From Acidobacteriota bacterium (lineage in GTDB: Bacteria; Acidobacteriota; Thermoanaerobaculia; Multivoradales; Multivoraceae): a stretch of DNA of 64,000 bases. The notes beneath the pieces were generated by a model. That model did not search any database. It saw only the letters and a program-made list of their open reading frames with translations, and was not told the origin of the DNA. The stretch covers positions 627,786 through 691,785 of the forward strand of contig JAPPCR010000006.1 of the NCBI GenBank assembly GCA_028875725.1, written 5' to 3'. The position numbers and the translations under genes are program-made. Shown here piece by piece: positions 42,567 through 47,374 of this stretch (positions are counted from its first letter, which is position 1; each line of letters starts with the position of its first letter).

Positions 42567-43595
42567 ATGGCCGGCACCCGACTTCGCGTCCTCCGCGTCG
42601 ACGAGATCGAGGCTTTGCTCGGCCTGCTCGACGGCTGGCCGTTCCCCGACGACCAGAGTGGCCGGAGCTTCTTCCGCCGCTACATTGAGCTCGATCCGTC
42701 GTTCGAGCCGCGGAACGTCTGGGTGGCGCAACGGGGCGGCGAACTGGTCTCGTGTGTGCAGATCTTCCCGCGCCGGGTGCGGATCGGCGGCGAAGTGTTG
42801 CCCATGGGCGGCATCGGCAGTGTATTCACCCGGCCCGATGCCCGGCGCCAGGGAGTGGCGGGGGCGTTGCTCGAACGGGCGATCGCCGCGATGGGTGAGA
42901 GAGGGATGCTGCTCTCGTACCTCCTCGCCGAGCGGCTGCGGTGGTACGGACAGTACGGCTACCGGCCCTGGTCGCGGGGCTGGCGTACGCTGCATTGGCC
43001 GGACGGCGCCCGAGCCGAAGCCGCGAACGCCCGCCAGTACGATGCCGAGCGCGATCGAGGCGATGTCGAGAGGCTCTGGCGCGTCTACGCCGAAGGCGCC
43101 GGCGGGGCGCCGCTCGACGGCATCGTCGACCGCGGTTCCCCGGAGGACTGGCGGGGCAGCTACCAGCTTGCCGGTACGCCGGAGGAGAACATCTGGATGG
43201 CGGACGGTGGACCTCCCGCAGCGGCCTACCTGCGCGTTGCCGACTTCAGCGGCCTGCCGCGGGTGCTGGAGTGGGGCAGGGAGGGTGACGGGGCTCCTGC
43301 CTTGTGCGAACTGCTGGCCGCGGCCATGAGCGGGCGGAACGTCGAATCGATCCGGCTGCCCCTGATCCGCGACGAAGCGCTTGAACGCTTGCTGGCGGTT
43401 GCCGGCGCACGGATCGACACCCGGCCGGCATGGGACGAAGTGCCGCCCGACGCGAGGCCTCCCGCGACCTGGATGGCTCGGAGCCTGGACGACGAGGCCC
43501 TCGCCGTCCGGCTCGGAATGGCCAACGAAGGTGACGTCCTCGCTCGCTGCCTGCCGCCAGAGCGGTTCGCGTTCTGGGAGGCGGACCGGTTCTAG
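42567..43595 (+). CDS. GNAT-type N-acetyltransferase, Eis-like architecture
   Basis: 342-residue acetyltransferase. The first about 150 residues are a GNAT domain with acetyl-CoA loop GSVFTRPDARRQGVAGALLE and the YGQYGYRPWSRG segment. A second domain follows that resembles the second GNAT/SCP2-like half of Eis-type proteins. The acceptor is unknown. ATG 42567 begins at the conserved strand. It ends by overlapping the convergent DHFR-like gene by 4 bp. Confidence 0.8.
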   Translation: MAGTRLRVLRVDEIEALLGLLDGWPFPDDQSGRSFFRRYIELDPSFEPRNVWVAQRGGELVSCVQIFPRRVRIGGEVLPMGGIGSVFTRPDARRQGVAGALLERAIAAMGERGMLLSYLLAERLRWYGQYGYRPWSRGWRTLHWPDGARAEAANARQYDAERDRGDVERLWRVYAEGAGGAPLDGIVDRGSPEDWRGSYQLAGTPEENIWMADGGPPAAAYLRVADFSGLPRVLEWGREGDGAPALCELLAAAMSGRNVESIRLPLIRDEALERLLAVAGARIDTRPAWDEVPPDARPPATWMARSLDDEALAVRLGMANEGDVLARCLPPERFAFWEADRF

Positions 43596-44116
43596 GGCCG
43601 CTTCACGGAGTAGACCAGGCCGACCGTGCCGGTCTCCTTGTAGATGTCCTGTGCTTCGAGTTCGAGCTTGATCCGCGGCGCCGGTGCGGCGATCAGCGGA
43701 ACACCGCCGCCAAGGACCACCGGAATCACGGCCACTTCGACCGTGTCGACCAGGCCCGCCTCGGCAAGGCTGCCGAACAGCGATCCGCCGCCGAACAGCC
43801 AGATGTTCTTCTTACCGGTTTCCCCGCGAAGCGCCTGGACCACTTCTTTCCAGTCGTCGCCGACGATCGTGATGTTCTTGTAGTCGGCCTGCCGGAGCGT
43901 GCGCGAGAACACGAAGGTCCTCACGCCCGGCATGGAGCCCTGGTCCTGACCGCCGGTGCTCTCGAAGGTCTTGCGGCCGACGAGATAAGTGTCGAACTCT
44001 CCGTACAGTTCGGCGAAGTCGTAGTCGGGATCCATGACGATCCAGTCCGCTTCGCCGTTCGGTCCGGCGATGTAGCCGTCCAGGCTCATGGCGACGCAGT
44101 AGCGGACTCTTCTCAT
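43592..44116 (-). CDS. Dihydrofolate reductase / RibD C-terminal domain family protein
   Basis: 174-residue NADPH-binding reductase fold (YCVAMSLDGYIAGPNGEADW, YLVGRKTFESTGG, KKNIWLFGGGSLFGSLAEAG). This is the short RibD-C/YyaP-like type, not the folate enzyme DHFR itself; the substrate is unknown. It starts at ATG 44116 and diverges from the selenoprotein gene over about 116 bp. Confidence 0.88.
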   Translation of the reverse strand: MRRVRYCVAMSLDGYIAGPNGEADWIVMDPDYDFAELYGEFDTYLVGRKTFESTGGQDQGSMPGVRTFVFSRTLRQADYKNITIVGDDWKEVVQALRGETGKKNIWLFGGGSLFGSLAEAGLVDTVEVAVIPVVLGGGVPLIAAPAPRIKLELEAQDIYKETGTVGLVYSVKRP

Positions 44117-44232: not shown

Positions 44233-44769
44233 GTGCAGGTGCTCGATCCGTCCTGGGAGGGTACGCCCCCGCCGCTCACGCCGGCGCCGCGGCTCGCCGC
44301 TTTCCGAGGCATCGATGTGGCCCTGCTCTCGAACGGCAAGGCCGGTGTGGCTCCGCTGTTCGACCACCTGGAGTCCCTGCTGCGGGAACGCTGGGGCGTG
44401 GCTTCGGTCGAGCGGGCGACGAAGGGGAACTACAGCGCTCCGGCGGAACCGGATCTGGTCCGCCGTTTGGCCCGGCGGCGACTGGTCATTACCGGCGTCG
44501 GCGACTGAGGGAGTTGCTCGTCGTGCAGTCTGCACGACGCCGTCACGTTCGAGCGCGAAGGTGTGCCCGCGGTCGGCGTGATGACGTCCGCGTTCGTCGA
44601 CGGCGCGGAACTGATGGCCAACGCCTGCGGCGCGCCGGACTATCCGTTCGCCGTGATCGAGCATCCGATCAGCAGCGCGACCGACGCGGAGCTCCTGGAA
44701 CGGGCCGGAGAGATCGTGCGGCAGGCGGAGGAACTGGTTCTTGCCGACGCGCCACGGGACTCGTCGTGA
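44233..44769 (+). CDS. UGSC-family selenoprotein with in-frame UGA (selenocysteine)
   Basis: 178-residue protein interrupted at codon 92 by TGA (44506-44508). Reading through gives ITGVGD-U-GSCSSCSLHDAV, the U-G-S-C motif for which the UGSC (seleno)protein family is named; Cys homologues carry CGSC. The frame continues unbroken for 87 codons (VPAVGVMTSAFVDGAELMAN, then DYPFAVIEHPISSATDAEL), and the stop at 44769 overlaps the next gene's GTG. A perfect SECIS-type hairpin lies 10 nt after the UGA. The start is placed at GTG 44233 (MQVLDPSWEG), where family similarity begins; GTG 44182 is also open. The molecular function is unknown; Sec plus Cys95 and Cys98 suggests redox chemistry. Untreated annotation would split it into two short genes. 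Confidence 0.88.
44519..44539 (+). promoter_or_regulatory. Bacterial SECIS hairpin (candidate)
   Basis: A perfect 9-bp stem (CGTCGTGCA / TGCACGACG) with a 3-nt loop GTC begins 10 nt after the UGA codon; its loop lies 19 nt from the UGA. The tip TGCA-GTC-TGCA closely resembles the apical part of the E. coli fdhF SECIS (TGCA-GGTC-TGCA), and the spacing is similar. It would recruit SelB with selenocysteinyl-tRNA during translation. Confidence 0.82.
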
Positions 44770-45899
44770 CGAGTTCGTGGCTACGGGCCGGCACCATGAC
44801 CGCGGTGTTCGTGCTGTTGGCGGCACCGGCGGCGGGACAAGACGGCGTGGTGCTGGCCGAGTTCATCTTCAACGACGCGCCGCATCCCGAGTGCCATGCC
44901 TCGACGATCGCCGAGACGGCTTCCGGCGCTCTGGTCGCTGCCTGGTTCAGCGGGACCGCCGAGCGGAACGCGGACGTCGGCATCTGGTTCAGCCGGCAGG
45001 GCGTCGACGGCTGGACGGCCCCGGTCGAAGTGGCAAACGGCGTTCAGCCGGACGGCGGCCGCTACCCGACCTGGAACCCGGTTCTCTACCAGCCGCCTCG
45101 GGACGGCGCGGCCCTGCTCCTCTTCTTCAAGGTGGGGCCGAGCCCGCCGGAGTGGTGGGGGATGGTCATGGAGTCCGGCGACGACGGCCGCACCTGGAGC
45201 GAGCCCCGGCGGCTTCCGGACGGCATCCTGGGGCCGATCAAGAACAAGCCGATCACGCTGCCCGACGGCAGTCTGCTCGCCGGCTCGAGCATCGAGGACG
45301 CGCCCGAGCCCCCGGCCTGGCGAGCGCACTTCGAGCGTTCGTCCGATCTCGGGCGAACCTGGACGCGCAGCGAGCGGCTGGCCGGCAAGACGACGGACGG
45401 CGAGGACTTCTGGATCATCCAGCCGACCATCTTCACGCTCGGCGGCGGCGAACTCCTGGCGATGTTCCGGTCCAAGCAGAGCCGCATCGCCGCTTCCCGT
45501 TCCGTTGACGAAGGCCGCACCTGGGGGCCGATCCACGCCACCGGCCTGCTCAACCCCGACGCCGGCGTCGACGGCCTGACTCTCGCCGACGGCCGCCACC
45601 TCCTCGTGTACAACCACAAGGTGCGCATCGACGGCGCCTGGGCCGGCTCCCGGTCGCGCCTGAACGTCGCGCTCTCGGACGACGGCGACACCTGGGACGC
45701 CGCGCTGATGCTGGAGGACCAGGACGGCGAGTACTCCTACCCGGCGGTGATCCAGGCCGGTGACGGGCTGGTCCACGTGACGTACACGCACCGGCGGACC
45801 CGCATCCGGCACGTGGTCCTCGATCCCGCGGCGCTGCCGCGGTACCCGATGCCAGGCGTCGAGTGGCCGCACGAGGCGCCGGTTCTGCCTCCGGAGTGA
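44766..45899 (+). CDS. Exported sialidase-like (BNR/Asp-box) protein
   Basis: 377-residue secreted protein with signal peptide (MTSSWLRAGTMTAVFVLLAA...AAGQ). Four Asp boxes (S-x-D-x-G-x-T-W type) are visible: SGDDGRTWSE, SSDLGRTWTR, SVDEGRTWGP and SDDGDTWD. These mark six-bladed sialidase propellers of the BNR_2 type. The catalytic residues of true sialidases are not all certain, so glycosidase specificity is open. GTG 44766 overlaps the selenoprotein stop (GTGA), and the SSS symporter follows with another GTGA, so the three genes are coupled. Confidence 0.82.
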   Translation: MTSSWLRAGTMTAVFVLLAAPAAGQDGVVLAEFIFNDAPHPECHASTIAETASGALVAAWFSGTAERNADVGIWFSRQGVDGWTAPVEVANGVQPDGGRYPTWNPVLYQPPRDGAALLLFFKVGPSPPEWWGMVMESGDDGRTWSEPRRLPDGILGPIKNKPITLPDGSLLAGSSIEDAPEPPAWRAHFERSSDLGRTWTRSERLAGKTTDGEDFWIIQPTIFTLGGGELLAMFRSKQSRIAASRSVDEGRTWGPIHATGLLNPDAGVDGLTLADGRHLLVYNHKVRIDGAWAGSRSRLNVALSDDGDTWDAALMLEDQDGEYSYPAVIQAGDGLVHVTYTHRRTRIRHVVLDPAALPRYPMPGVEWPHEAPVLPPE

Positions 45900-47374
45900 C
45901 CGCCGGCGTCGATCTCGTCGTCTTCGCCGCCTACCTGGTCGGCGTCGTCGCGCTGGGCCTCTCGCTCGCCAAACGGAGCGGAACGGCGCGAGGGTTCATG
46001 GTCGCGGGCGGAGCGTTGCCCGGCTGGGTCGTCGGCATGTCGATGTTCGGCACGTTCCTGTCGAGCAACACGTTCATCGGGGTGCCCGGGCAGGCGTACG
46101 GCGGCAACTGGAACGCCTTTGTCTTCTCGCTTTCCCTGCCGGTGGCGGCGTTCCTCGCGGCGCGCTGGTGGATCCCGTTCTATCGCCGCGGCGACGCGGT
46201 GTCGGCCTACCACCACCTGGAGGCGCGTTTCGGCCGCTGGGCGCGGACCTACGCCGTTGCCTGCTACCTGCTGACGCAGTTCGCGCGGGTCGGCTCGATC
46301 CTGTTTGGCGTGGCCCTGGCGATGAACGCCCTGACCGGCTGGCCGGTGGCCTGGATCATCCTCTGCACCGGCATCGTCGTCACGGTCTACACCCTCGTCG
46401 GCGGAATCGAGGCGGTCATCTGGACCGACGTGATCCAGAGTGTCGTGCTGACGGTCGGCGCCCTGGTGGTCGTCGGGCTCCTGGTCGGGGACGCGCAGGG
46501 TGGGTTCGGTGGACTGCTCGAGACGGCTCAGGCGGCGGAGAAGTTCTCTCTCGGCAGCTTCTCCTTCGAGTTCACGACCTCGACGTTCTGGGTCGTCCTG
46601 GTCTACGGCCTGTTCATCAACTTCACCAACTTCGGCATCGACCAGAGCTACGTCCAGCGCTACCACGCCGCGAACAGCGACCGGGCCGCGTCTCGCTCCG
46701 TGTGGCTGGCGGCCGGCCTTTACCTGCCGGTTTCGGCCGTCTTCTTCTTCATCGGCACCGGGCTGTTCGTCGTTCTTCAGGGACAGCCCGAGGCGGCCGG
46801 GCTCGCCGCCGATCAGGCCTTCCCGCACTACATCTCGACCCGGCTGCCGTCCGGCGCGGCGGGGCTGCTCATCGCGGCCCTGTTCGCGGCCGCGATGAGC
46901 AGCATCGACACGTCGTTCAACAGTTCGGCCACGGTGTTCCTGTCCGACATCTACCGGACCTGGATCCGGCCCGAGCGGGGGCCGGACGGCGGCGAGACGG
47001 AGGATCTGCGCGTGCTGCGGCGAGCTACGGTCGTCATCGGCGTTATCGGCACGGGCGCGGCGCTACTGATGATCGGCGCGGGGAGTCTTCTGGATGTGTG
47101 GTGGACGGTTTCCGGCATCTTCGCCGGCGGCCTGCTCGGACTGTTCGCGCTCGACCGGCTGGCACCCCAAGCGGGCCGCGGCGCCGCCCAGGCCGGAGTG
47201 GCCGTGGGCGTGCTGGTCATCGTGTGGATGACGGTGTCGCCGCAACTCGAGGGCGGCCTCGCGATGCTGCGCATTCCGCTGCACAGCTACATGATCACCG
47301 TCATCGGCACGCTCACCATCTTCGGCGTCGGTTTGCTGCTGGCGGGGCGGCGGCGGGCCGCGGCGCTGCGATAG
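45896..47374 (+). CDS. Sodium:solute symporter (SSS family)
   Basis: 492-residue membrane transporter with about 12-13 helices. SSS segments are clear (GALPGWVVGMSMFGTFLSSN, TLVGGIEAVIWTDVIQSVVL, LFAAAMSSIDTSFNSSATVF). The start GTG 45896 overlaps the sialidase stop (GTGA). Coupling to a sialidase-like enzyme suggests uptake of a released sugar such as sialic acid, but this is inference; no sialic-acid catabolic genes are in the window. Confidence 0.9.
   Translation: MTAGVDLVVFAAYLVGVVALGLSLAKRSGTARGFMVAGGALPGWVVGMSMFGTFLSSNTFIGVPGQAYGGNWNAFVFSLSLPVAAFLAARWWIPFYRRGDAVSAYHHLEARFGRWARTYAVACYLLTQFARVGSILFGVALAMNALTGWPVAWIILCTGIVVTVYTLVGGIEAVIWTDVIQSVVLTVGALVVVGLLVGDAQGGFGGLLETAQAAEKFSLGSFSFEFTTSTFWVVLVYGLFINFTNFGIDQSYVQRYHAANSDRAASRSVWLAAGLYLPVSAVFFFIGTGLFVVLQGQPEAAGLAADQAFPHYISTRLPSGAAGLLIAALFAAAMSSIDTSFNSSATVFLSDIYRTWIRPERGPDGGETEDLRVLRRATVVIGVIGTGAALLMIGAGSLLDVWWTVSGIFAGGLLGLFALDRLAPQAGRGAAQAGVAVGVLVIVWMTVSPQLEGGLAMLRIPLHSYMITVIGTLTIFGVGLLLAGRRRAAALR

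Follow-up and report, generated by a model that had tools for sequence, protein, structure and literature searches.

A UGSC-family selenoprotein gene of an Acidobacteriota bacterium and a candidate partner protein encoded elsewhere in the genome

The UGSC family is known from selenoproteome surveys, as the UGSC-containing protein, and is represented by the Pfam family PF24696 and the NCBIfam family NF041046 (UGSC_fam), but it remains uncharacterised. Two groups of described selenoproteins resemble it. In glycine reductase and D-proline reductase, the Sec residue attacks a carbon, and the cycle is then closed by a dithiol (PMC10298544). The subunits GrdB (glycine/sarcosine/betaine reductase) and PrdB (D-proline reductase) have, like UGSC, a UxxC motif following a strand in an alpha/beta domain, then a helix and a G-[IV]-[PA]-[TA] strand, and they work with partner subunits, including the pyruvoyl-type proproteins GrdE and PrdA, and with dithiols; we propose partner and dithiol use for UGSC as well. 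The thioredoxin-like selenoproteins (Trx, Prx-like and DsbA-like) also have the UxxC redox motif in common with UGSC. PMC2398784, in its passages on UGSC, assigns a 'likely Trx-like fold' to the family, and both this paper and, in the corresponding passages, PMC13188914 group it with the Trx-like thiol oxidoreductases.

The window analysed here (the whole stretch of 64,000 nucleotides) contains a UGSC-family gene at 44233-44769 on the forward strand, with a GTG start codon, a product of 178 aa and a TGA stop codon at 44767-44769. Loci of sister genomes resemble named acidobacterial loci in nucleotide sequence, which makes Acidobacteriota the probable phylum. The frames 44233-44508 and 44509-44769 of this strand form a single frame, and its sole interruption is the TGA at 44506-44508. 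Translation of this codon as U gives ...VITGVGD-U-GSCSSCSLHD..., and the resulting motif, U92-G-S-C95-S-S-C98, contains the U/C-G-S-C signature of the family (U92-G-S-C95). A sequence-only reading had joined the two frames, derived the U-G-S-C-S-S-C motif from Sec translation and placed the protein in the UGSC family, and all of this was borne out. The match of the read-through product to PF24696 extends across the UGA in both directions (residues 3-168, E 3.2e-48; 164.6 bits for a cut-off of 25; positions 2-169 of the 172 of the profile). The cut-off of NF041046 was narrowly missed (123.2 bits vs 125; profile positions 4-144 of 147), and the protein is therefore filed under PF24696 only on the profile test. 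The window gene is a genuine new and well-supported member of a known selenoprotein family: it has the same UxxC, the same Sec position and about the same length as other members, from which it differs in lacking an adjacent gene for the partner protein X described below and in being coupled to a sialidase-like gene. The same reading had found the pair of cysteines at positions 95 and 98 notable. This stands for Cys95, the UxxC partner of Sec92, which is invariant, but not for position 98, which is variable, with Trp or Ala in several subfamilies.

The insertion of Sec at UGA 44506 is inferred from comparative sequence data. The TGA is found at the same codon in 9/9 same-genus orthologues, all of which have also retained a GTG or ATG start codon. 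In the nine window-orthologue pairs, dN downstream of the UGA ranges from 0.045 to 0.068 and dS from 0.20 to 0.46 (dN/dS about 0.11 to 0.31), and purifying selection thus acts on this part of the gene. Beyond the genus, 80 named loci were collected from GTDB genomes with a search pattern that did not specify the residue at the Sec position, and their recognisable GSC motifs have TGA at the Sec codon in 83 of 83 cases; because the ranking of these loci followed their similarity to the window protein, the set is poor in distant and Cys-containing homologues. Homologues ending at the UGA, put forward in the sequence-only reading as grounds for refutation, were not seen, all of them reading on. 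That reading had also expected selenocysteine machinery in the genome, and the assembly (4.54 Mb, 98% complete) encodes SelA (350 bits), SelB (319 bits), SelD (253 bits) and a tRNA-Sec with the anticodon TCA, which reads as tRNA-Sec(UCA) (74 bits vs a gathering score of 47), the set taken to define a bacterial selenoprotein machinery.

A putative SECIS hairpin, CGUCGUGCA-GUC-UGCACGACG, is located at 44519-44539 on the forward strand. It has 9 bp and a 3-nt loop starting with G then U, the distance from the UGA to the loop is 19 nt, and its predicted energy is -13.3 kcal/mol; it satisfies all the constraints of the bacterial SECIS (bSECIS) model given in PMC13188914. Simple folding of the 61 nt after the UGA revealed no excess over shuffles (z -0.47), and this plain fold score is uninformative, so covariation was needed to judge the hairpin. 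When 52 distinct relatives were aligned without gaps, pairing was seen in 87.8% of cells, with a covariation score of 0.162, vs 0.092 +/- 0.008 in 500 shuffles, none of which reached the observed value. Both pairing and covariation drop if the partner strand is shifted by one to three columns. Furthermore, in a subfamily with Trp in place of Cys98 (UGC to UGG), the Val codon after the loop also changes, from GUG to GUC, and the pair is restored.

Read-through beyond chance is therefore indicated by the profile match, by the TGA and the selection in the orthologues, by the motifs of the other loci and by the covarying hairpin. An alternative view takes the UGA for a genuine stop, or for an error of sequencing or assembly, with a relic or a separate gene downstream. 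In its favour, UGA nominally ends translation and the plain fold is unremarkable, but the view was ruled out by the uniform TGA, the covariation and the selection downstream; the Sec machinery is also complete, and the sole true pseudogene found (in the congener G176) looks different, being an internal deletion. We consider this view scarcely credible. Decoding of the UGA as Sec, giving a 178-residue product with a UxxC pair, for which a Se-S bond is predicted, is strongly supported.

A role in binding metals or metalloids, with Sec92 and Cys95/98 as ligands, for detoxification or trafficking and with no catalytic reduction, seems improbable for this product. Sec has been proposed as a metal ligand for other uncharacterised selenoproteins (PMC13188914), but Cys98 is not conserved in UGSC, and the subset of neighbours that was annotated contained no recognisable genes for metal resistance.

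An AlphaFold2 model of UGSC built from 57 sequences (mean pLDDT 92.9) consists of five beta-alpha units, with strands and helices strictly alternating, and Sec92 is positioned after the third strand (84-90) and before helix 93-108. The modelled arrangement is Rossmann/flavodoxin-like, and the predicted fold contradicts both the Trx-like fold suggested in PMC2398784 and the grouping adopted in PMC13188914. A thioredoxin fold was rejected, because its central beta-beta hairpin order is not seen in the model. The matches listed in fold searches with UGSC were generic and included TIR, receiver, PurE, FMN reductase and other Rossmann-like chains; thioredoxin was absent among the PDB matches listed, an absence that excludes nothing by itself. 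The top VIA match was 8s7v_H, from the MCR activation complex (Z 11.5, 134 residues, rmsd 3.5), but unrelated TIR and receiver domains came next, at Z 10, and this match was therefore not taken as evidence of kinship. Neither UGSC nor the core of X had sequence relatives in the PDB, and no viral relatives were confirmed.

A distant kinship between UGSC and GrdB/PrdB is hinted at by a weak profile-profile match to PF07355 (GrdB/PrdB), with a probability of 9% and a P value of 0.0035, in which the two UxxC motifs are aligned within a stretch of 33 columns. The proposed analogy between them rests on this match together with the shared motif and its position; the window protein itself did not match PF07355 at E values up to 1. 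The window genome carries PF07355 selenoproteins separate from UGSC. Two such genes have an in-frame TGA, one at G000:C23:567414-567767 (L156; motif CPVUPNC) and the other at G000:C6:944385-944633 (L179; motif VPVUPVC). As the genome also has two UGSC genes, both with an in-frame TGA, at least four selenoproteins are predicted for it.

Among the named loci, UGSC has a near-constant partner, which we call X. Of 82 homologous UGSC genes, 78 have X alongside or in their own frame: X is encoded directly upstream, on the same strand, in 73 cases, with a median gap of 44 nt between the X stop codon and the UGSC domain, and in five cases X comes after UGSC, in its frame or close to it. Two of the UGSC genes without X are at contig edges, and no X was detected for two others, one of which (L141) is near a contig end. 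No credible Pfam family was found for the X core in a search with 59 X proteins, and X has no NCBIfam name. An N-terminal extension bearing a CxxC motif is present in 39 of the 73 X proteins; it matches thioredoxins (E 4e-5; also in the structure model), and one subtype of X thus has a thioredoxin domain (Trx-X). Only this thioredoxin part matched PDB sequences, and the matches listed in a fold search with X were taken up by thioredoxin chains and a poor match to fumarate hydratase (rmsd 14.6), so that the X core was barely probed. Several polar residues of X are invariant (e.g., Asp156, Arg267, Asn269, Arg274, Lys301, Glu308 and His383, in the numbering of the model). Paired distance matrices for X and UGSC were strongly correlated (r 0.92; maximum with shuffling 0.10), partly through shared species history.

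In a genus of a sister lineage (g52), UGSC and X are encoded in one frame of about 600 codons, and each of nine genomes has at least 10 to 11 of these UGSC-X genes; TGA is present in the majority, and a small number lack Sec. Some of those at loci L045-L052, L055 and L058 begin with a signal-peptide-like stretch, and a few have Ser in place of Sec and no UxxC. A fusion of UGSC to an unknown domain ('Unknown_1') was reported in the GOS survey of 2008 (PMC2398784), and this domain, as presented in its passages on the fusion, may be X; within the open-access literature, the same passages make no mention of X and UGSC as adjacent separate genes. At seven loci (L103, L078, L104, L149, L132, L127 and L106), selB lies within a few kilobases of UGSC and X, and L127 also has a selD-like match nearby, as if the Sec machinery travelled with its user in several lineages.

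These observations bear on whether UGSC is a stand-alone thiol/selenol redox protein, such as a peroxidase or a reductase of disulfides or oxidised proteins, with X as a mere frequent neighbour. This would agree with the grouping in the two papers cited above (in PMC2398784 and PMC13188914, in their passages on UGSC), with the typical redox character of UxxC and with the window copy, which has no adjacent X. We nevertheless consider it unlikely, given the predicted order of beta-alpha units, which is not that of thioredoxin, the near-constant linkage of X, the existence of one-frame UGSC-X genes and the presence in the window genome of an orphan X gene that has been lost together with UGSC in congeners. 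Unlike the thioredoxin-like selenoproteins, in this system the thioredoxin domain is found on X rather than on UGSC.

In the window, the UGSC gene is followed on the same strand by a sialidase-like BNR_2 gene at 44766-45899 (PF13088, E 2.3e-80) and by a sodium:solute symporter gene at 45863-47374 (PF00474, E 5.3e-44), which overlaps the BNR_2 gene. The overlap of the downstream stop with the GTG of the next gene, from which the sequence-only reading had expected the full-length product, was confirmed: the GTG begins at 44766, and this GTGA stop-start overlap is found in 9/9 same-genus orthologues. The order UGSC, BNR_2, symporter is also conserved in all nine orthologous loci. A RibD_C/dihydrofolate-reductase-like gene at 43592-44116 on the reverse strand is divergent from UGSC, and its position is kept in six of the nine. 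No X gene lies beside this UGSC copy. The second UGSC gene of the genome (C15:256081) is divergent from a Trx-X gene; a metallo-beta-lactamase-fold gene and CoxG are found near it (L053 10585-16163), together with genes that, from their sequences, we take to encode molybdenum-hydroxylase subunits.

The other X gene of the window genome is the orphan, at G000:C9:165567-166568, which has neither a thioredoxin domain nor a neighbouring UGSC. In 21 congeners, window-type UGSC and orphan X were both found in 18 (including G299 and G302, in which they were seen as fragments at contig ends), neither was intact in two (G303 and G176) and X occurred alone in one (G305). The G176 genome is a single contig; an internal deletion has reduced its UGSC to a remnant that lacks the Sec region, orphan X is absent and the sialidase-like gene retains an open frame. 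The one-sided exact probability of this co-occurrence, calculated by hand and ignoring kinship, is 3/210 = 0.014. In the trees, the window UGSC and the orphan X are both on long branches, and neither the trees nor the mean identities tie them clearly to any single X-linked subtype, so these were not counted as evidence of pairing. Counting against pairing are the lack of an adjacent X at the window copy and the presence of orphan X without UGSC in G305. We infer that the two are separated partners, and the partner of the window UGSC is probably this unlinked orphan X.

The window copy might instead have been recruited to the sialidase-like/symporter unit, acting there rather than with X. The conserved order and GTGA overlap argue for this, as does the lack in G303 and G305 of both UGSC and a close sialidase orthologue. 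We nonetheless find it doubtful, because in G176 the sialidase-like gene is intact despite the deletion in UGSC and the missing orphan X, indicating that this gene does not need UGSC; moreover, coupling to the unit and an X partner elsewhere are not mutually exclusive.

We return to UGSC and X as the proposed parts of one enzyme. UGA 44506 would be decoded by SelB and tRNA-Sec(UCA), aided by the SECIS hairpin next to it. The product, an alpha/beta protein of 178 residues in which Sec92 and Cys95 form the UxxC pair, would be the selenolate-bearing subunit of a two-component enzyme, to which X would supply the substrate site; this role of X is a guess, as its core has no identified relative. In the Trx-X subtype, the thioredoxin domain would re-reduce the Sec92-Cys95 bond. 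The UxxC motif, the near-total retention of Sec, the larger partner with its invariant polar residues and the thioredoxin domain on one subtype of X suggest a thiol-driven reductive selenoenzyme. By analogy with GrdB/PrdB, it would most likely cleave a small organic substrate in a two-electron reduction driven by thiols. We estimate a probability of roughly 0.55 for this model as a whole (Sec decoding, a two-component thiol-fed UGSC-X reductase and the orphan X as partner), and the same for the wider proposal that UGSC and X constitute an undescribed class of two-component selenoenzymes, widespread in mostly uncultured bacteria, with thioredoxin built into one subtype, strongly expanded in one lineage and represented in the window by half of a split pair.

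The near-constant partner opens the function of this family to direct test. Beyond the first reading of the sequence, which had yielded one more family member, there are now a partner missing at this locus, a second UGSC gene and a predicted non-thioredoxin fold. With X matching no family model, the predicted fold differing from the one suggested earlier and the unlinked pair traceable across a genus, there are leads on the protein to use in co-purification, on the reductant and on the genomes for comparison. Gene neighbourhoods vary from lineage to lineage (CoA-transferase III, alpha/beta hydrolase, CoxG and symporters), so no single substrate is indicated. At seven loci, a CoA-transferase family III gene directly follows UGSC (L083 10408-11712, L074, L078, L095, L098, L115 and L126; confirmed by Pfam in L083), a possible hint of a carboxylic acid or CoA-linked substrate.
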